From: a virus | IMG/VR virus record: IMGVR_UViG_3300017917_002689 | Coordinates: 1-27,965 of that record | Strand: one strand, 5' to 3' | DNA length: 27,965 bases | The notes under the pieces: generated by a model | What the model was told of the DNA's origin: nothing | The model's database searches: none | The model's input: the letters and a program-made list of their open reading frames with translations, nothing else | Part shown: positions 8,411 through 26,010 of the stretch, piece by piece | How the letters are laid out: each line of letters starts with the position of its first letter | Numbering within the stretch: the stretch's first letter is position 1 | Position numbers and translations under genes: made by a program

Positions 8411-9319
8411 ATGGTAGAACAAACAATAGACCCAAGACAAGCATTACAGCCAAGATTCCTTGAAGGAGTTATTAATAAGAAATTAGAACAGCAATTAGAC
8501 TTTTTAGGTATGTTCCCTCGTGTTAGAACTGACGCTTTATCTTTCAGTTACTTTGAAGACACAACCAGTGCTGGAGCAGATATCACAGCAGGTACCATGG
8601 GTACACCAAATGATCTATTAGAACTTGGTGAACTCTCAGAGATCGAAGTATCAAGAATCAGCATGGCACACGGTGCAATGAAAAGGTTCGGGTACCAACT
8701 TAGATTCTCACAGAGACAACTAAGAGAAATAGCTGTTATTGATGAAATTAACAGAGCTGTTGACAGAGCTGTTTTCGGTATAAGTAAGAAAATGAATGAT
8801 GATATAGTTGATGTAATTAAAGCTGTATCAAACGATGTAACAGAAGTATCCGGTAGTGCTGTATGGTCTGATGACGCAGCAACTCCAGTAGAAGATTTAC
8901 TTTCATTCCAAGAAGCTTCTATGATTGAAGGATATCCATACATGTTAAACAACCTTTACTTACACAAAACAAACTACTTCGAAATGTTAAAATACATCCA
9001 GGGTGTAGACATTAACTGGGTCAAATCTCCATTCGGTGGAGCTCAAGAAGTCCCTGAAATCAATGGTGTGAAATTACACAACCTCCACTCAACTCAGCTC
9101 GCTGAAGGTGGATACATTGGTACAGATGACAGATTCCCAGGTATCACAGTATACGAATATTTAGACCCTAAACATTCCAGTATGGAAGGTGGAATGATTA
9201 ACGTCAACATGTACGAAGAAGAAAGATTCCCATACAACATAGTTGTAGAAATGTACGCAGAAAGAGGAATCGCAACTAAATTACCTAACAGTATATACTA
9301 CAAATCAAGTGGTATTTAA
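8411..9319 (+). CDS. Major capsid protein, HK97 fold, 302 aa
   Basis: AGGAGG (8397-8402) precedes ATG 8411. It follows protease/scaffold and decoration genes and precedes a terminator, as major capsid genes do. The long helix DEINRAVDRAVFGISKKMND (spine helix) and the C-terminal strands (NIVVEMYAERGIATKLPNSI) fit the HK97 fold. A FDTT-like segment SYFEDTTSAGADIT near residue 46 suits the E-loop. The length of 302 residues suits a small HK97-fold subunit without a long delta domain, consistent with a separate scaffold. Codons are richer in C-ending forms than in the tail genes, as expected of a highly expressed gene. Confidence 0.85.
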   Translation: MVEQTIDPRQALQPRFLEGVINKKLEQQLDFLGMFPRVRTDALSFSYFEDTTSAGADITAGTMGTPNDLLELGELSEIEVSRISMAHGAMKRFGYQLRFSQRQLREIAVIDEINRAVDRAVFGISKKMNDDIVDVIKAVSNDVTEVSGSAVWSDDAATPVEDLLSFQEASMIEGYPYMLNNLYLHKTNYFEMLKYIQGVDINWVKSPFGGAQEVPEINGVKLHNLHSTQLAEGGYIGTDDRFPGITVYEYLDPKHSSMEGGMINVNMYEEERFPYNIVVEMYAERGIATKLPNSIYYKSSGI

Positions 9320-15734: not shown

Positions 15735-15772
15735 ATATTATGTATAAAAAAAGAATAACTGTGGTGGTTATA

Positions 15773-16144
15773 ATGGTAGATTTAGACTTAGATATATTAA
15801 ATGAAAAACAATTAACAATTAAATTATTTGGTAGAGATGTAGCATTTAGAAATTTAACAGTAGAAGAACATTTAATGAATGAATTTATAATTCAGGAATT
15901 AGATGCAATGCCTATGAGTAATAAAGAAAGTATTATTGAAGGCGCTAAAATGATTCAAGAATATATGTTTAAAACTTTGGAAATAACCAAAGCTGAATCT
16001 AAGAAGATAACAGTTGATCAATTCGCTGCATTTAGACAATTTATGGCACGTAAAGATATGTATGATCAGGGATTCTCAGATGAAGATATTGATCGTTTAG
16101 AAAGAGAAGCGCTAAAAAAGAAAGCGGCCCAGATTTTAGAATAG
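15773..16144 (+). CDS. Tail assembly chaperone G-like protein, 123 aa
   Basis: GTGGTGG (15761-15767) precedes ATG 15773; the frame is open back to 15740 without a better site. A beta N-terminus (KQLTIKLFGRDVAFRNLTVE) leads into helices (AAFRQFMARKDMYDQ, DIDRLEREALKKKAAQILE). It lies between tube and tape-measure genes, the invariant position of the lambda gpG analogue, which coats the tape measure during tail assembly. The slippery sequence near its 3' end gives a longer second product. Confidence 0.78.
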   Translation: MVDLDLDILNEKQLTIKLFGRDVAFRNLTVEEHLMNEFIIQELDAMPMSNKESIIEGAKMIQEYMFKTLEITKAESKKITVDQFAAFRQFMARKDMYDQGFSDEDIDRLEREALKKKAAQILE

Positions 16145-16359
16145 GACATCATGGATGCCTCTACATGTTACATAAAATGTCAGAGGTAAGGGGCTGGAGC
16201 CATAATGAAATGTTACAGATGTCCAAGTCTACATTCTATCGTTATTATGGTTATTGGTATCAGGATCAATTAGAGGAACATTATAGAATGGAACATGATA
16301 AGAAGAAACAAGAACGGGAATCTAAAAAGAATCAACCCCGTCAATGGAAAAGTTTATAA
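15773..16359 (+). CDS. Tail assembly chaperone GT-like fusion by -1 frameshift, about 195 aa
   Basis: The first 116 codons come from the G frame up to AAG 16118-16120. A -1 slip then reads codons from 16120 to TAA 16357-16359 with no stop. The added 79 residues begin ESGPDFRIGHHG and contain RGWSHNEMLQMSKSTFYRYY and a charged tail. No ribosome binding site precedes ATG 16165, so the T part is unlikely to be a separate gene. Fusions of this kind recruit the tail tube protein to the tape-measure/chaperone complex in lambda-type tails. Confidence 0.78.
16114..16120 (+). other. Programmed -1 frameshift site A_AAA_AAG
   Basis: In the G reading frame the heptamer is split A|AAA|AAG, the classic X_XXY_YYZ arrangement, 21 bases before the G stop codon. 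The -1 frame is open through the T region. A hairpin at 16158-16186 lies 37 bases downstream, farther than usual for a stimulator. Confidence 0.8.
16158..16186 (+). other. Hairpin downstream of the frameshift site
   Basis: CCTCTACAT (16158-16166) pairs with ATGTCAGAGG (16177-16186), leaving one bulged C and a 10-base loop. It could modulate the frameshift or hide ATG 16165. Confidence 0.4.
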
Positions 16360-16372
16360 AGGAGGTGAATGA

Positions 16373-18547
16373 GTGGCAAGCAAACGAATAGATGTTAATA
16401 TTAATAGTACAAATGCTGGTAGTGGATTTAAATCTGCTGGGTCTGATATAGCCAAATTAAAAAGTGAAGCTGGTAGTGCTGGACAAACAATTGGACAATC
16501 TATTGCTAGTGGATCAAGAACAGCATCTTCAAGTTTAAGTAGTCTTGGAGCAACTGCAAATAAAACTTTTGGTACAATTAAAGCCGGAGCATCAGCAGCC
16601 AGACAATCCATGGGAGATCTTGGAAATGCTATTAGTGCAGTTGCTGGTGGTATTGGGGCAATGGAAGTTATACAAGCGGCATGGACAGGTTCAACCCAGA
16701 AACAATTCAACCAAGCATATCTTCAGACAAAAATGAGTTCACAAGCAGCTAGTGAATATATTAAAAATATTCAGCAAATTGTAGCAGAAGCACCTGGTGA
16801 CGATACATTTATGAATAATTTATTAACTGGTGCTGTAGCTAAAAATACAAAGATGTCTAATTCCGAATTAAAACAGATGGCATTTATTGCAGCTGATTAT
16901 ATGACTGTTTCTAAATCCATGGGTAAATCTATGGTTGAGACACAGAACGATTTAAAAGAATATCTATTAACTGGTAATACAACTCAGCTAGAAAGAGATT
17001 CTATTCTTAAAGGTCAGATGGGCACATTAGAAGGTCAGAAAACTGTTAGCGAACGTATTTTAGCTTTAGATAAAGCTATGCGTAATGAAGGTTATGCTGG
17101 TTTATCTCAGTTAGATATTGCAGCTATTAAATGGGAAGAGATTAAAGGTAAAATACAACTGGCTGCAACCACAATTGGTGATAAGGTTTTACCATTTGTT
17201 GAGAAAGTATTTGATTGGTTCCTTAAATTAGATGAACAAACTAATGGTTTTTCAACTGTATTAGCAGTTGCAGCTGGCGCAGTGGCATTAATTGGATTGG
17301 CCTTAGCACCTGTTGTAGGAGCTACATTAAGTGGTTACTACGCAATGAAAGCATACCGTATGGAAGCTGAGAAAGCAGCATTAGCAAACGCATTAAATAA
17401 AGGACCAGGTGCTGGTGGACCTATTGGTACTTCTGGCGGTATAATGCAGAAAATCAGTGATTGGATTGGTACTCTTGGTGGTGTTGGTGCTGGTGCTGGA
17501 TTAGCAGTAGCTGGTAAAAGTTTAGCTATGAGATTATTAACTGGTTTAGCAATGGGTATTAATACACTTGGAATTGCAGTAGTAGGACCCGCATTAATGG
17601 GATTATTTGAAAATGTTACTCCAGATATTGCTGGTAGTGGGAGTTTATTCTCTGGAAATTGGGATTTCAGTGCAGCTTTTAATAAACAATTTGGTCCAGG
17701 ATCTAAAATAGCTACTGATTTTGGTAATGCATTAAATGCTGGTATACAGGGCTCATTAGCAGATCAATTAAACTTACCAGGCTGGCTTATGGGACATGTT
17801 GTGCCAGCATTCAGTGCAGCTGGCGCATATATCCAAGGAGCTTGGGGGAATACAGTTGCATATATGACCGGCGCATGGAGTAACACTGTTAGTTGGGTTA
17901 CAAATGGTTTATATAATATATTGGGCACTGTATCTTGGGTTGCTGGTTCAATTGGAGGATCATTTAGCGGAGCATGGAATAGAATAGTAGGTGGATATAA
18001 CTGGATGAGAAGTGTTGTATCAAGATGGATTAGCACTGGTGTTTCAGTTGCTACTGGTGCTATTGATGCTGCTAGAAACGCATGGAATAGTCTTAAAGGT
18101 TTTATAATGAACAATCCAATTATTGGTGCGGTTCGTAGTGCTATAGGTTTTGGACCATCTGGAATGGGTGCAGCCCGTGGTCCAGGTATTGGATTATCAT
18201 ATGAAAACTATGGTGGTCATAAAAAGAATGCATGGAACGCTGCTGGAACTGGATTATCTGGTAACTGTGTTGATATGACACTTGGTTTAATGTCTGCTTA
18301 TGGTGGAAGTATGGTACAAGGTACCTGGAACGGTGGACCACATGTATGGTGGCAATCACCTAGCGGAGCACAATTAGATCCAGCTAGGAAAGCATTAGAA
18401 GGCACTTGGGCTCCCCCAGCAAGAGGACCTGGTGGTGGTAACTTTGGAAATATTGTAATCCAAGGAGATGTATATGGATTCGATGATTTCAAACGAAAAG
18501 TCGAACAAGCAAACGCAAGCATCGGATATGATGCTGGGATGTTTTAA
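16373..18547 (+). CDS. Tape measure protein with C-terminal Cys-His-Asp peptidase-like domain, 724 aa
   Basis: GTG 16373 follows GGAGGTGA (16361-16368). The Ser/Gly/Ala-rich helical N-terminus, hydrophobic stretches at about 293-317 and 367-412 (AVAAGAVALIGLALAPVVG), and Trp-containing repeats at about 467-580 are typical of tape measures, which set tail length and enter the cell envelope. Residues about 615-690 form a distinct domain: GNCVDMTLGLM with Cys632, GPHVWW with His657, and QLDPAR with Asp669. This is the Cys-His-Asp order of transglutaminase-like peptidases, the superfamily that includes pseudomurein endoisopeptidases. At about 0.15 nm per residue the tail would be near 100 nm. It probably cuts the wall during DNA entry. 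Confidence 0.85.
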   Translation: MASKRIDVNINSTNAGSGFKSAGSDIAKLKSEAGSAGQTIGQSIASGSRTASSSLSSLGATANKTFGTIKAGASAARQSMGDLGNAISAVAGGIGAMEVIQAAWTGSTQKQFNQAYLQTKMSSQAASEYIKNIQQIVAEAPGDDTFMNNLLTGAVAKNTKMSNSELKQMAFIAADYMTVSKSMGKSMVETQNDLKEYLLTGNTTQLERDSILKGQMGTLEGQKTVSERILALDKAMRNEGYAGLSQLDIAAIKWEEIKGKIQLAATTIGDKVLPFVEKVFDWFLKLDEQTNGFSTVLAVAAGAVALIGLALAPVVGATLSGYYAMKAYRMEAEKAALANALNKGPGAGGPIGTSGGIMQKISDWIGTLGGVGAGAGLAVAGKSLAMRLLTGLAMGINTLGIAVVGPALMGLFENVTPDIAGSGSLFSGNWDFSAAFNKQFGPGSKIATDFGNALNAGIQGSLADQLNLPGWLMGHVVPAFSAAGAYIQGAWGNTVAYMTGAWSNTVSWVTNGLYNILGTVSWVAGSIGGSFSGAWNRIVGGYNWMRSVVSRWISTGVSVATGAIDAARNAWNSLKGFIMNNPIIGAVRSAIGFGPSGMGAARGPGIGLSYENYGGHKKNAWNAAGTGLSGNCVDMTLGLMSAYGGSMVQGTWNGGPHVWWQSPSGAQLDPARKALEGTWAPPARGPGGGNFGNIVIQGDVYGFDDFKRKVEQANASIGYDAGMF

Positions 18548-18560
18548 GGAGGAATAAATT

Positions 18561-20477
18561 ATGACAGATTTATGTAGCATTGGCCCAGTATCTATTACAC
18601 AGGCGATGCTTTGGGACAACAACAATTTCAGTATCACAAGTGGTAGTAATAAAACTACTACTTATGGTACCACTATTTTCACCAAAGGACAATTCGAATC
18701 ATCAGAAAGTTTTGAAGTTATATGTACATTTGATGAAGCATTTCAACTTAAAGGACTAGTTGAAATCGGAGAACCAGTATTTATAGATGCATCCACAGAC
18801 TTAACAGACAATGATTATTTCCAACACAAAGGATGGTATTTATTAACAGATATCGATTTCGAACATTTGAATGCAACTTATATGAAATGTAGTATAGACT
18901 GCCAATTTATTAGTTCGTATAGTAACGAATATTTAACTATGGATTACTCAACTGGATATTATGATGGAATTGCTTTAGATTATACATATATACCAACTTC
19001 AAATGTTTATCAATTACAAGATGATGGAAGTACAGTTAATAATTTTGATAGTATATATGAATATGAATATCCAAATGGTGGAAATCCAACAACAAGTGCA
19101 GCTTCTGATGGTGCAGAAATAGATATACAAGTTGCATCTACTGTAGATGGTCAACTATCAATTGGATGGTTAAAAACAACTGCTAAATATACAGTTCCTT
19201 GTACAATCGAAACAGTATTAGATAGAAATAGTTTACCAGGTGCTGGATCTCGAAATGCACAGATGGGATTTGGTATTTCAAAAGAAGTTTTATCACAAAC
19301 AAGTCAAGCCGCCCTTAAAAATGGTGCAATTGAATGGTTTGAATATGCATGGACTATGAATAGTGCTTCATCTTATGATTATGTTGGGAGTAGTAATTCT
19401 GGTGGATGGGTAACTCATTATCCTTGGACATCTGTTGGAACTGCGAATGCAGAGATGGGTCTTAAATTTATATTAGAATTAGATGGAACAATAGAAGTTT
19501 TAACTGATTATGATACAACAGGTACATGGACATCTATATATAAAGGACCAAGTCGAATACAGAATTTACATGAAGGTATATATATATATTTATTAGTATA
19601 TAACAATGATTCAACAGCATTTACAGGAAGTTTTCAGAAACTAGAAATATATAATTCAGATAATATAGCACCAGAATATGTTACCTGTTTACCATATAAT
19701 GCAACAGTACAAACAGCAGCTACAGGAAATAGAGCCGGTGAAGATGGTAATATACCATATTATACAAATCCAACAACAGAACTCCGATATACTATAGCAC
19801 AAACTGATATGTATAAAGGTTCAGTAAAATTATTAAGTTCTAATAATGCAGCTACAACTGATAGACAAGTATATAATACAGATGCAATATTAACACCAAC
19901 AACAACTACATTAAAAAATGCATTTACAAAAATAACATTTGATGCAGATGAAATGATATTGTCTGGATATGATAGTGGTGGATGGCAAGAAATCAATAAA
20001 TTTGATTATGGTACTGGAAATGCTATAACTTTAATCAAACCATTATTGATAACACATGATAAAGTTGTATTACAGGTAAATGACACAAAAATTGTAATGT
20101 TAAGAAGCAGTCCTATGATAAGTTTATATCATCCAAATAAAGCATTATCGTATGTAGTAAAAGATAATTTTTATTATAATGGAGCATTAGATACAAGTAT
20201 AGCTGGTGGAGATACAATAGCAATGACAGATTTAGATGATGGGTATTATAGTTATACTTATGCAGATGCACCAAATGATACATATAGACTTATATTTGGT
20301 AAGAAAGATCCAACAAGTATATTAAGTGATAGTTTACCTGCAGATGATATTACTGGAATAGGATGGAATACGTCAACACAACAAGGAGTAGCTGGAGGTG
20401 TTAATACAGCCGCCAAACTAGTTCAACAATGGTGGAAACAAACACACACGGGAGTTTCTTTAAAACAAATTGTATAG
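18561..20477 (+). CDS. Distal tail protein-like (Dit) with insertion, 638 aa
   Basis: GGAGGAATAA (18548-18557) precedes ATG 18561. The first ~135 residues have the look of a Dit N-terminal ring domain (GTTIFTKGQFESSESFEVIC, HKGWYLLTDIDFEHLNATYM). Position right after the tape measure supports this. Residues about 185-370 resemble a concanavalin-like jelly roll (IETVLDRNSLPGAGSRNAQM ... TWTSIYKGPSRI ... FQKLEIYN). The C-terminal third is beta-rich and ends WWKQTHTG. It is more than twice the length of a standard Dit, so it is probably an evolved Dit carrying a binding module. Family assignment is moderate. Confidence 0.55.
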   Translation: MTDLCSIGPVSITQAMLWDNNNFSITSGSNKTTTYGTTIFTKGQFESSESFEVICTFDEAFQLKGLVEIGEPVFIDASTDLTDNDYFQHKGWYLLTDIDFEHLNATYMKCSIDCQFISSYSNEYLTMDYSTGYYDGIALDYTYIPTSNVYQLQDDGSTVNNFDSIYEYEYPNGGNPTTSAASDGAEIDIQVASTVDGQLSIGWLKTTAKYTVPCTIETVLDRNSLPGAGSRNAQMGFGISKEVLSQTSQAALKNGAIEWFEYAWTMNSASSYDYVGSSNSGGWVTHYPWTSVGTANAEMGLKFILELDGTIEVLTDYDTTGTWTSIYKGPSRIQNLHEGIYIYLLVYNNDSTAFTGSFQKLEIYNSDNIAPEYVTCLPYNATVQTAATGNRAGEDGNIPYYTNPTTELRYTIAQTDMYKGSVKLLSSNNAATTDRQVYNTDAILTPTTTTLKNAFTKITFDADEMILSGYDSGGWQEINKFDYGTGNAITLIKPLLITHDKVVLQVNDTKIVMLRSSPMISLYHPNKALSYVVKDNFYYNGALDTSIAGGDTIAMTDLDDGYYSYTYADAPNDTYRLIFGKKDPTSILSDSLPADDITGIGWNTSTQQGVAGGVNTAAKLVQQWWKQTHTGVSLKQIV

Positions 20478-20487
20478 GGTGGTTTAT

Positions 20488-22704
20488 ATGATAAGAGAAT
20501 TTGTAAACAATCTGTACGTGCCTAATAATAACTGGCACGTCCAGGACCCTTATTTTTATGTAAGGGTTGATAGTTTTGATAATGCAGATATAATAGAAGA
20601 GAATATTATAGAATGGCCAGCAAATGATGTATTAGAATATCCCAGTGGGGCATTTGTTGGTCTAAGTAGAAATGATTCAAGTAGTAGTGTCACATTTACA
20701 AGAACTGTAAATTTACCAAAAACTGGGAAATATATGTTTGAAATATTTGGGAAGAAACGCCCACAATGTTCTGGTGATATGACATTAACAGTAGATGGTA
20801 CTACAGTTTTAACTGAAAATATGAATAATGGATGGGATGATTATGGAACATGGATACAAAGCGATATAGTAGACATAACCGATGATGGATCATGTGTATT
20901 AGCTTTAACAGTTCCAAAACATTCGTTTGTAGCTCATTTCCGAATAGTCCCAATAACAAGATATGAAGGTGGTAGAGAATATAATGGATCATCAGAAACA
21001 AGATTAGATATATTAAATATAGAATTTACAACTAATGGTGTTAATGAAGTAGATAAAGGAAAAATTACTGTAGCATTTAAAGAAGATTTCTATACAGACG
21101 ATAATCCATATAGTATATTATGTTTTGATGCATGGGATCCAGTAACAATAGTGATTGGAGAAGATATGCAAAGTGCTATACCCATGTTTGGTGGATATGT
21201 ATCTGGATGGAGTTTAAATGATGAATGTACAGAATTAACAATTGATATTATAGATTCAATATATAGATTAAGCCGTGTATTTTTATGGAAAAATTTTAGT
21301 ATAGGATATATTCCAGAAAATACAACAGGACGAATGCCGTTTACACAATTTCCAAATGTAAATGAAATAGCAAGATATATTTGTACAAGTGATTATCCAA
21401 TAAATTTTGAAGCAATAACAAGAGATTATATATTTTATCATAATTTTGCAACAGAAGATACAGTAACACAATTAACTAATAGTGGGTGGAAAATAGATTG
21501 GCAACCTGAATTTGGGAATCCAGCGCCATGTATGAGATTAAGACCAAATCAATTAGGAGAAAGTAGTGTAATATTATATAGTAGTTCAATTGGTGAATGG
21601 GATGCAACAGTATATAATTTTTTCAATTTTGATTATTATGTATCTGGAGCTGGAATAATATTTCCACCAAGATTCAATATAGAAATTGACATGTATAAAA
21701 ATGAACAGACACCTAGTCAATCTATAACATATACTATTCCATTTACTGGACCAAATCCGGATGGATTAGTATTAGATCCTATATTACCAAGATTTGATGG
21801 TACATGGAATAGTTTTTTAGTGGATTTAAAAGCACAATTTGATAAAAAAGCACCAAGTACACATTATTATATTTCAGAAATACGTATTGTTGGACAACCA
21901 GATCAGCAGCAAATATTAAATAATAAATGTACAAGTATATATATAGATCATATAATTGGATATAGAGATTTTCAATCAGCACCAAGATATGCATCAGCTG
22001 ATAGTAAAACACCATTACAAGAATTACAGGATCTATGTGATAAAACTAACCAAATTTCATTTATACGACCAGCAATGGCAAGAAAAGATGATCAATTAAT
22101 AATGATACCAAAACGTTTCTATACATTACCATTAGAAATAAATGAAGGTAGCAATTTAATAGATGTATCTGGATTAACATATAAACCAATTGAATGGGGA
22201 TTAAAGAACTATACATACCGTACATTTAATTATGATGATAGTAGAAGTGGGTCAATAACAAAACAGGATATGGATTCTATATTATGGTATAATAGATGTA
22301 TGGATCATGAATTTGTAAGTGATGTTAAAAATGATATGGATGCAGCAGTAGATGCACAATATTTTGTAGATGAACATAAATTTTGGTATCCTGCGTTTGA
22401 TGTAACTGTATTAGGTACAACATTACTTGAACCAGGACAATACATTAATGTATCTATACCAAGTAAAAGAATAACTGGACCACAAGAAGTACAATCATTA
22501 AAATTTAAATTAGATACAGTAAATAGATACTTCACAACAACAGTGAGTTTTAATGCGCCACATAGAAGTTTCATGCAATTTATGAGGATAGCTATGAAAA
22601 CACAACAAGCACTTAAAAACTTAGGAAATAATGCAGCATATAGAAGCTTTGGTAACCAAGAAGCTGGATTAAATACTTCAAGTGCAGCATTTAGACAGAA
22701 TTAA
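20488..22704 (+). CDS. Baseplate hub/tail-associated protein, 738 aa
   Basis: The start is ATG 20488 after GGGTGG (20477-20482); the frame is open to 20470, overlapping the previous gene. Residues about 60-160 form a jelly-roll-like module (GKYMFEIFGKKRPQ, DMTLTVDGTTVLTENM). Residues about 170-270 resemble the gp27/gp44 hub barrel (DAWDPVTIVIGEDM, GGYVSGWSLNDECTELTIDI). From about residue 505 TPLQELQDLCDKTNQISFI and the final QEVQSLKFKLDTVNRYFTTT match the hub pattern of siphovirus and Mu-like tails. It likely closes the tail tube beneath the Dit-like ring and carries the tip adhesins. Confidence 0.6.
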   Translation: MIREFVNNLYVPNNNWHVQDPYFYVRVDSFDNADIIEENIIEWPANDVLEYPSGAFVGLSRNDSSSSVTFTRTVNLPKTGKYMFEIFGKKRPQCSGDMTLTVDGTTVLTENMNNGWDDYGTWIQSDIVDITDDGSCVLALTVPKHSFVAHFRIVPITRYEGGREYNGSSETRLDILNIEFTTNGVNEVDKGKITVAFKEDFYTDDNPYSILCFDAWDPVTIVIGEDMQSAIPMFGGYVSGWSLNDECTELTIDIIDSIYRLSRVFLWKNFSIGYIPENTTGRMPFTQFPNVNEIARYICTSDYPINFEAITRDYIFYHNFATEDTVTQLTNSGWKIDWQPEFGNPAPCMRLRPNQLGESSVILYSSSIGEWDATVYNFFNFDYYVSGAGIIFPPRFNIEIDMYKNEQTPSQSITYTIPFTGPNPDGLVLDPILPRFDGTWNSFLVDLKAQFDKKAPSTHYYISEIRIVGQPDQQQILNNKCTSIYIDHIIGYRDFQSAPRYASADSKTPLQELQDLCDKTNQISFIRPAMARKDDQLIMIPKRFYTLPLEINEGSNLIDVSGLTYKPIEWGLKNYTYRTFNYDDSRSGSITKQDMDSILWYNRCMDHEFVSDVKNDMDAAVDAQYFVDEHKFWYPAFDVTVLGTTLLEPGQYINVSIPSKRITGPQEVQSLKFKLDTVNRYFTTTVSFNAPHRSFMQFMRIAMKTQQALKNLGNNAAYRSFGNQEAGLNTSSAAFRQN

Positions 22705-22716
22705 TGGGGGCCTAAA

Positions 22717-25700
22717 ATGGTAACTAAGAAAGTAAATTTTAGAGGTAGTGCCTTAGCAGACCGCTTAGGCACTCTCAACAATTTTATTTGTAATGATGAA
22801 ACAAATCTAAAATTTAGTCCAATAACAGATTCGGGTACACAAGAAGGGATATCAGAAAATCGTTTCCGTATATCCGAATCCATTGCTCCAGCATGGAGTA
22901 AAATATCAGTTGGATACAAAAAAACAGCTATATATGGAGAACATGATGGTACAATAGAAGTATATGGATTAGATAATCTTGGATTAGAAACATTATTATA
23001 TCAAACAAAAATAAACTTAACAGAAGCTGGATTACAAAATGTTTCATTTATTGATATGTTAAGATCATCATGTACTGGTGCAGTAACATGTGTAGATAAT
23101 GAAAATATACTAAATAATCATATGGAAATTCGAATGCCTAAATTAAGAGAAAAGTATGATGATGTTTCTCTCCAGGCAGCATGGTATGATCCGGCGTGGG
23201 CTTATCGTAAAGGTGTACCTATAAATTTATCATTAAATTCTAAACACACACAAACAATTTGGACAGATGATACAGGTAAAGACGCTGTAATAACAGTACC
23301 ATATGCTTATAGACATGAATATTGGTATGAAGTAATATATGTAACTTATGATGCACATATGCAAGCAGATTTTGGAGATTTAAGATTCACTGGATTTGAT
23401 GGTGTATCACCAATAGAATATTGGATTATAAATAAAACCGATTCATCAAATGCAACAATAATGTTACGTATTCCATGGTATTGGGGTTGGAATGAAAATG
23501 AAAGACCACAACTTCACACAAATTATGGAGTAAGTTATGGTATAGGTGAAACTCCAAATATAAATAATTATACTAATATCAACCCTAAATTTATATGGAT
23601 GTACTATGGAAATTCATCATGTGATAATGGTACTAAAACACCAGTTGACGGTGAAGATGGTATATATTGGTTTGATGATTTCACAACCGATACAAGTAGT
23701 GAATGGACAGTTGTGGGAGCAGCAGGGGCAAATAGTACATTTACATGGGATAATTCAAGTAGTCTTGATATGCAAATAAATGCAAATAATACAGAGAATG
23801 GATTCTTTGCATATCATGCTTTGCCAGCAGAAATATCTGGGACATATGCAGCATTTGATATTATATGGAAACTTGAAAATATCCCAACAACAGCAGGTAA
23901 TTATGATGCTGCAGTATGGGTTGGAACAACCGATGATGGAACAACACAACCACGAGATTGTCTAGGATTATGGATAACTCCATCAGATGTATATGCAGTA
24001 CAATTCAAAGATGGTGCATCAACAACATGGACAGCTGGAAGTTTAAGTTTTAATCATGATGATACAGAACCATTATATATAAGAGCACGTATACATCCTT
24101 CACATGAATCAAAAAATTTGGCTGGAATAACTTGGGAAATTAGTAAAGATTGCCGTAAATGGACACAAGTTGTGAATCTAATATATCCAACTGATATATC
24201 TGTTATACCATATAGTGAATTAACTCAATTTGGTATGAGGATGAGTGCATGGGCAGCAGCACCAGCATTTAATATGGAATTAGATACAGATTGGATAATG
24301 ATAACACAAAGTCATAAAGTACCATGTAGATCTGATGAATTTAATGAACATTTTGAATTTAGTGATTGGAACCATCAATGGACTGGAACTAATTATGATG
24401 GAGCAAATAATACATATACATTAGATTATAGCAATAGTGAAGTTGATTTTGCAATAACAGGTGGAAGTCAAATATACACTGCTGGAACTGATACAGCTGC
24501 AAGAATAGAAATACAAAACTTAGTAAAATATGATTCTATAATTATAGAAACCAGATTAGATACACACACAAGAAGTACAAATGGATCATCTAGAGCAACA
24601 TTATATACTGGAACAACTGCATCAGAACATTTTAGTATTTTTCATCAATTAAATAATGCAACACAATATAATAATAACATATTATGTATTTCAACAAATG
24701 GTGGATCAGATTCAATTAAAACATATCAACAATATGAAAAAGAACCTATAGCAGAAGGACCAATATGGTTACGTATTATATATGATATCCCATCATATCG
24801 TATAATAGGACAATACAGCCGTAATGGATATGATTGGTATAATTGTGGAGGAGAATCAATATATTATGATAGTGATATAACAGATATTGGTTTGGTTTTA
24901 CAAAACGATGGTAGTGGAAATGCAACATGTAGTTTCGATTATTTAAAAGTGACAACTGGACCTTACGCAGCAAATTTCGGAGAAACATTTACAGCAGAAC
25001 AAGCATATACAGATTATGATGATATAGCACCAGAATCAGCAATATATTATCAATATACTGATGATTTTGAAGATAATGATTTAAGTGGAGCAAGAACATA
25101 TCCATACCGTGAAATGACATCATTTACAGGAACATTAGCAGTAGAATCAGCCGCGCCAATAACAGGAACATATAGTTTAAAACATACAGGTAATGGATCA
25201 GATGTATCAACAAATATTGTTCAATTTGAAGATAAATTAAAAGAATATACGGCCACATTTGACTTTAAACTATCAACACAAGGTGCAGCTGCAAACACAC
25301 CATATTTAAGATTATGGGTATTAAGAGGAGCAAATGATGGAAATAGTTACACAGCAGTAGATACATATTATGATGGGACTAATCAAAAATTAAGAGTTAT
25401 AAACTATCATAATAATTCAGGGACTGCAATAGTATCAGCCGTAACATGGTTAGCTGGAGCAAAATTAGGAACAGCAACAACCTATTCATTTACAATAATA
25501 GATAATGGGACATCTGTAACAGTTAAAGTAGGATCAACAACATATATAAATAACGCCACATATTCAACTGGTACAAATGTATCAAAGGTTTTACCAGGAC
25601 AATATAAAGGATTTGGAGCAAACGCAGATTCAGCAGCGAGATGGGATAATATAATAATTAAACCAGGGTACTGGTATGGTGGAATACAATATACAAATCC

Positions 25701-26010
25701 AGCATTAACCACAGCTGTAACAAAAACAGTTGGGGACTGGCAGACAATATATGATCCACAGAATAGTTATTATTTCAGAATGCCATCTAGCTTTATACGC
25801 AATCAACCAATGATACTAGCATGGAAAGAACAAGGACAAACAACAGAATGGCAATACACCAAACCATTCTATCCAAAAACCGGCGGCGTATTTTACGCTG
25901 GTCCAAATGGTCTAGATAAATACATAGGAATGAAAACAAAAATAATATTCGAAGGAGACGATGAAGATACTCTAGAAATAACAGATATAACCTATGAATA
26001 TGAGGTGTAG
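22717..26010 (+). CDS. Large tail-tip adhesin with DUF2341 and lectin-like modules, 1097 aa
   Basis: ATG 22717 has a weak G-rich site (GGGGG, 22706-22710). Residues 1-150 would attach to the tail. Residues about 155-305 match the DUF2341 pattern: WYDPAWAYRKGVPINL, then FGDLRFTGFDGVSPIEYWII, then FIWMYYGNSSCDNG. Three jelly-roll modules follow, opening with YWFDDFTTDTSSEWTV (about 317), DEFNEHFEFSDWNHQW (about 538) and YTDDFEDND (about 785). A short C-terminal part (NQPMILAWKEQGQTTEWQYT) ends the chain. DUF2341 and jelly-roll modules are common in archaeal and bacterial surface adhesins, so this is the best candidate receptor-binding protein. Confidence 0.7.
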   Translation: MVTKKVNFRGSALADRLGTLNNFICNDETNLKFSPITDSGTQEGISENRFRISESIAPAWSKISVGYKKTAIYGEHDGTIEVYGLDNLGLETLLYQTKINLTEAGLQNVSFIDMLRSSCTGAVTCVDNENILNNHMEIRMPKLREKYDDVSLQAAWYDPAWAYRKGVPINLSLNSKHTQTIWTDDTGKDAVITVPYAYRHEYWYEVIYVTYDAHMQADFGDLRFTGFDGVSPIEYWIINKTDSSNATIMLRIPWYWGWNENERPQLHTNYGVSYGIGETPNINNYTNINPKFIWMYYGNSSCDNGTKTPVDGEDGIYWFDDFTTDTSSEWTVVGAAGANSTFTWDNSSSLDMQINANNTENGFFAYHALPAEISGTYAAFDIIWKLENIPTTAGNYDAAVWVGTTDDGTTQPRDCLGLWITPSDVYAVQFKDGASTTWTAGSLSFNHDDTEPLYIRARIHPSHESKNLAGITWEISKDCRKWTQVVNLIYPTDISVIPYSELTQFGMRMSAWAAAPAFNMELDTDWIMITQSHKVPCRSDEFNEHFEFSDWNHQWTGTNYDGANNTYTLDYSNSEVDFAITGGSQIYTAGTDTAARIEIQNLVKYDSIIIETRLDTHTRSTNGSSRATLYTGTTASEHFSIFHQLNNATQYNNNILCISTNGGSDSIKTYQQYEKEPIAEGPIWLRIIYDIPSYRIIGQYSRNGYDWYNCGGESIYYDSDITDIGLVLQNDGSGNATCSFDYLKVTTGPYAANFGETFTAEQAYTDYDDIAPESAIYYQYTDDFEDNDLSGARTYPYREMTSFTGTLAVESAAPITGTYSLKHTGNGSDVSTNIVQFEDKLKEYTATFDFKLSTQGAAANTPYLRLWVLRGANDGNSYTAVDTYYDGTNQKLRVINYHNNSGTAIVSAVTWLAGAKLGTATTYSFTIIDNGTSVTVKVGSTTYINNATYSTGTNVSKVLPGQYKGFGANADSAARWDNIIIKPGYWYGGIQYTNPALTTAVTKTVGDWQTIYDPQNSYYFRMPSSFIRNQPMILAWKEQGQTTEWQYTKPFYPKTGGVFYAGPNGLDKYIGMKTKIIFEGDDEDTLEITDITYEYEV

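Follow-up and report, generated by a model that had tools for sequence, protein, structure and literature searches.

A Cys-His-Asp domain related to pseudomurein endoisopeptidases at the C-terminus of a viral tape measure protein

Pseudomurein endoisopeptidases (Pei) are known as lysis enzymes, and tape measure proteins exit the tail tube on infection, with their C-terminus expected at the tip. To our knowledge, the route of tailed archaeal viruses through the pseudomurein wall is not established. PeiW and PeiP, which come from viruses of pseudomurein hosts, use a Cys-His-Asp triad to cut the Ala-epsilon-Lys bond of pseudomurein and depend on divalent metal (PMC4592898). Wall-hydrolase enzymes within bacteriophage tape measures have been described, namely the mt3 motif of phage TM4, which helps DNA injection (PMC1796659), and the GH23 transglycosylases of enterococcal phages (PMC1796659, PMC10194240). 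These belong to other families and act on murein, whereas the tape measure domain reported here is a transglutaminase-like cysteine enzyme by homology and is found in viruses of archaeal pseudomurein hosts. Our literature search, in which preprints and most subscription papers were outside the scope, returned no account of tape measures that bear a Pei-like domain, and a prior mention is possible.

We analysed a window of 27,965 nucleotides (positions 1 to 27,965 of IMG/VR record IMGVR_UViG_3300017917_002689), the features of which are listed in Table 1. A profile search matched the 724-residue ORF (E 3.7e-13) to phrog_58, annotated as tail length tape measure protein, and this profile, together with a tail tube gene upstream and collinear tail genes downstream, identified the ORF as the tape measure gene. 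Its N-terminal part shared 42-61% identity with the tape measures of PhiF3, L013 and L014, and 54% with a tape measure encoded in a Methanobacteria-class chromosome (L019 type). By blastp, the two genes directly 3' of the tape measure matched genes of L036, L037, L040 and L041 in the same order (E 4e-25 to 5e-54). On the 5' side, window positions 15740-16359 hold a possible tail-chaperone ORF of 134 aa and, shortly after it, an ORF of 64 aa; programmed frameshifting at tail-chaperone ORFs is a feature of many tailed phages.

Table 1. Coordinates of the features discussed, in window positions
Feature	Position	Strand	Basis or remark
Major capsid protein	8411..9319	+	34% identity over 301 aa (E 2e-49) to vir249 major head protein
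Tape measure protein, 724 aa	16373..18547	+	GTG start; phrog_58 match
Cys-His-Asp transglutaminase-like domain, residues 610-690, copy-2 type, shortened	18200..18442	+	Alignments, profiles, AlphaFold, VIA-align
Cys632 (GNCVD), predicted nucleophile, helix start	18266..18268	+	Invariant 29/29
His657 (GPHVWW), predicted catalytic base, on strand 655-661	18341..18343	+	Invariant 29/29
Asp669 (QLDPAR), predicted third triad residue	18377..18379	+	Invariant 29/29
C-terminal linker and tail past the domain (GDVYGFDDFKRK...)	18443..18544	+	Comparable ends in the tape measures of vir249, L036, L090 and L101
Two tail genes immediately 3' of the tape measure	18561..22704	+	Gene order as in tandem-domain relatives
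Large tail gene	22717..26010	+	Weaker, still collinear: E 1e-5 to 7e-10 vs L036, L037, L041 (blastp)

The preliminary description had placed a Cys-His-Asp triad in the motifs GNCVD, GPHVWW and QLDPAR at the C-terminal end of the tape measure, with spacings of 25 and 12 residues, and the ORF translation confirmed this. Cys632 is the sole cysteine of the protein. C632, D634, H657 and D669 were invariant in all 29 aligned rows, as were Y613, N631 and G650. None of the homologues examined had lost the Cys, His or Asp, some of them having been listed by a motif search that itself required the motif. When the window copy was compared with profiles of related domains, hhalign probabilities reached 96-99%, and none of 100 column shuffles attained the score. 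The invariance of the triad and the shuffles together rule out a chance motif.

Relatives were gathered using the whole tape measure and alignments as queries. The window stretch alone retrieved the vir249 tape measure (E 5e-7), and the vir249 and PhiF3 sequences in turn retrieved the same C-terminal domain in the tape measures of vir075, Drs3 and MSTV1. Scanning viral contigs and genome contigs with alignments added about 30 further relatives. With the window domain as a single sequence, the viral scan returned no relatives, and a search of PDB sequences found nothing. Almost all relatives were tape measure C-termini of Methanobacteriales viruses, comprising Drs3, PhiF3, vir249, vir075, MSTV1, proviruses and uncultivated contigs, and every match below E 1e-5 in the 'phages' database was a virus of Methanobacteriales. 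The domain was absent from the tape measures of psiM2 and psiM100, which shows that such viruses can do without it. The vir249 and PhiF3 tape measures also matched phrog_38386, a family listed as of unknown function, over a stretch that included the C-terminal domain; the window copy gave no match to it. One contig binned to a Lachnospiraceae MAG, L008 (JAISGP010000126.1), carried a tape measure of the methanogen-virus type, probably through a binning error. The tape-measure-domain profile was also matched in 141 of 150 Methanobacteria genomes, where the weaker matches lay mostly in other ORFs, which may encode adhesin-like proteins containing transglutaminase-like domains.

The window domain had no match in Pfam. 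Two homologues passed the curated cut-off of 23 bits for Transglut_core (PF01841), the L015 tape measure with 28.5 bits and a YqbQ-like protein of L013 with 41.2 bits, and the vir249 and PhiF3 tape measures gave weaker matches below it. Profiles tied the window to the same family as these homologues; it has the predicted fold and the triad in common with the transglutaminase-like superfamily and represents a shortened variant. In an AlphaFold model of window residues 571-724, pLDDT was 88-93 across most of residues 611-680. The model has the Cys opening a helix (632-643), the His on a strand and the Asp after that strand; this order, with Cys at a helix start and His and Asp on or after the next strands, is the one expected of the superfamily. 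With the window model as query, Foldseek returned weak matches (lowest E 0.22). When its candidates were aligned with VIA-align, the top match was the PeiW catalytic domain (Z 7.5, rmsd 5.0, 110 aligned residues), followed by PeiP (Z 6.6, 100 aligned residues) and then by other papain-like enzymes; structural Z values below 8 can arise by chance. For the first domain of the L037 tandem model, the Z values were 10.8 for PeiW (rmsd 2.4 over 98 residues) and 9.9 for PeiP, and Foldseek placed PeiW first (probability 1.00, E 0.018). The predicted fold was thus transglutaminase- or papain-like, with PeiW and PeiP as the best PDB matches. Membership of the transglutaminase-like superfamily that includes Pei, as first proposed, is supported by the predicted fold, the family profiles and the homologues above the Transglut_core cut-off.

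PeiW and PeiP, assigned to MEROPS C71 and Pfam PF12386, have this fold, the Cys-His-Asp triad and a GxNCxD motif around the Cys in common with the tape measure domains, and an upstream YxFYYN motif is common to Pei and the complete tape measure homologues. In a profile-profile comparison of 33 tape measure domains with 8 Pei, hhalign gave a probability of 96.8% with NCxD and the His aligned, and the score was 65.7 against a maximum of 19.5 among 100 column shuffles. Directly compared with Pei, the window copy gave no significant result (hhalign probability 0.3%), and its whole subclade reached 10%; since both reach the tape measure profile at the probabilities given above, homology to Pei is established through the family. 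In a tree, all Pei formed their own clade (100/100), and the window grouped with copy-2 domains (100/99) and not with PeiW/PeiP, the bootstrap being not fully settled and the branches to Pei long. Against the PF12386 cut-off of 22 bits, the window had no match and the best tape measure relative scored 17 bits. By the separate Pei clade and these scores, the domain is related to C71 but falls outside the family as curated. Profile searches bore out the expected link to C71 and the transglutaminase-like clan by way of homologues and family profiles, but not for the window sequence itself, which matched neither C71 nor Pfam. The suggestion of a new lineage of pseudomurein hydrolase fits these sequence comparisons. 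Both groups come from viruses of pseudomurein hosts, and Pei were the best PDB and profile match. Pei act in lysis as free-standing enzymes, and several have wall-binding repeats, whereas the tape measure domains form part of a virion protein.

These comparisons also bear on whether the domain might be a true transglutaminase (cross-linking), or might cut a host surface protein such as an adhesin-like protein, rather than pseudomurein. Both activities are known among transglutaminase-like enzymes, and other, weaker-matching domains occur in long ORFs of most Methanobacteria genomes. However, pseudomurein isopeptidases were the nearest among the solved structures and the profile tested, and among named viruses the domain was restricted to those with pseudomurein-walled hosts, which makes such an activity very unlikely.

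Several tape measures (L014, L036-L038, L040, L041 and L096) end in a tandem pair of complete Cys-His-Asp domains, and a similar pair is found in L101. Both domains of the tandem have intact triads, but in the second the upstream motif reads GYxGHxK, compared with YxFYYN in the first; this difference suggests, at the level of sequence, that the two copies may differ in the substrate or bond on which they act. A single domain of the copy-2 type is carried by the window and by L090 and L091. The window copy lacks the N-terminal (upstream) helix of complete homologues, has a 6-aa deletion behind the Cys helix and shows a degenerate YxFYYN motif, features that might mark a wall hydrolase reduced to a decayed remnant or to binding alone, although its relatives are active. 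Yet the triad, Asp634, Gly650 and Trp652 are all kept, most of the core is predicted at the high pLDDT noted above, and a comparably short domain that retains the triad recurs in L090 and L091, the closest of the single-copy relatives (52-53% identity). We therefore consider a remnant improbable, and favour a functional hydrolase.

The L013 tape measure is 61% identical to that of the window over its N-terminal half, yet lacks the domain. In L013, the YqbQ-like tail (hub) protein (L013:11882-13144) instead ends in the Transglut_core domain, with NCYD...H...D, and this arrangement indicates that the enzyme has changed its carrier protein within the tail. The position of the domain is relevant to another explanation, in which the domain is an active cysteine hydrolase that, rather than being a wall enzyme, cuts its own tape measure or some other tail protein as the virion assembles. 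C-terminal trimming is known for some tape measures, and here the domain is C-terminal, has a short tail behind it and has similar ends in several viruses. But profile and fold were nearest to the wall enzymes PeiW and PeiP, and its occurrence on the YqbQ-like protein and its doubling elsewhere suit a tip-exposed hydrolase better than cis-processing. A processing protease is accordingly unlikely, and we retain the reading of a wall hydrolase.

Among the loci compared, the nearest capsid protein to that of the window was that of vir249, whose host belongs to Methanobacteriales. All named viruses with the domain have Methanobacteriales hosts, which are pseudomurein-walled, and a provirus of the L019 type carries a tape measure with the Cys-His-Asp domain inside a contig of 586 kb from a genome in the class Methanobacteria, to which Methanobrevibacter belongs. 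From the capsid, the tape measure and the provirus, we infer a Methanobacteriales host for the window virus. We also considered a bacterial host, as the best matches of the terminase and portal were bacteriophages, and rejected it because the capsid, tape measure and provirus point to Methanobacteriales.

Drs3, vir249 and MSTV1 carry both the tape measure domain and a separate C71 gene, as expected if one enzyme serves entry and the other exit. In PhiF3 and vir075, no C71 gene exceeded the cut-off. The L041 record has a C71 gene above the cut-off about 10 kb past its tape measure; at L079:1437-3774, this gene directly follows a 546-aa protein resembling a parallel beta-helix tail protein. The preliminary description had stated that no other wall-degrading enzyme is present in the window, which held for the ORFs scanned, but absence is unprovable from a linear fragment record. 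Because the record is a fragment, and the C71 gene of L041 lies beyond the point corresponding to the window's end, the lack of a separate wall enzyme means little and was dropped as support.

We estimate a probability of about 0.68 that the domain is a cysteine hydrolase carried in the virion, belongs to a lineage homologous to but separate from Pei, sits at the tape measure C-terminus and cuts pseudomurein at entry. Placed where the tape measure is expected to reach the tail tip, the domain would be exposed when the tape measure exits the tail tube after adsorption. The Cys632-His657-Asp669 triad would then cut the peptide cross-links of pseudomurein, probably at the Ala-epsilon-Lys isopeptide bond, and the resulting local hole in the wall would allow DNA to enter; a separate Pei gene, where present, would serve lysis at exit. 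More tentatively, and at somewhat less than even odds, most non-psiM Methanobacteriales siphoviruses may carry this second, virion-borne pseudomurein-cutting lineage as a general entry device, with tandem copies cutting different bonds.

The window virus is thus likely to bring its own means of breaching the archaeal wall on entry. Naming the domain and its invariant triad, together with the cultivated viruses MSTV1, Drs3 and PhiF3, would allow entry and exit enzymes to be separated by mutation. About 30 new Pei-related sequences become available for work on pseudomurein or on the control of gut and rumen methanogens. The domain, like the bacteriophage enzymes part of the tape measure, would be an archaeal parallel to wall-cutting tape measures of bacteriophages.
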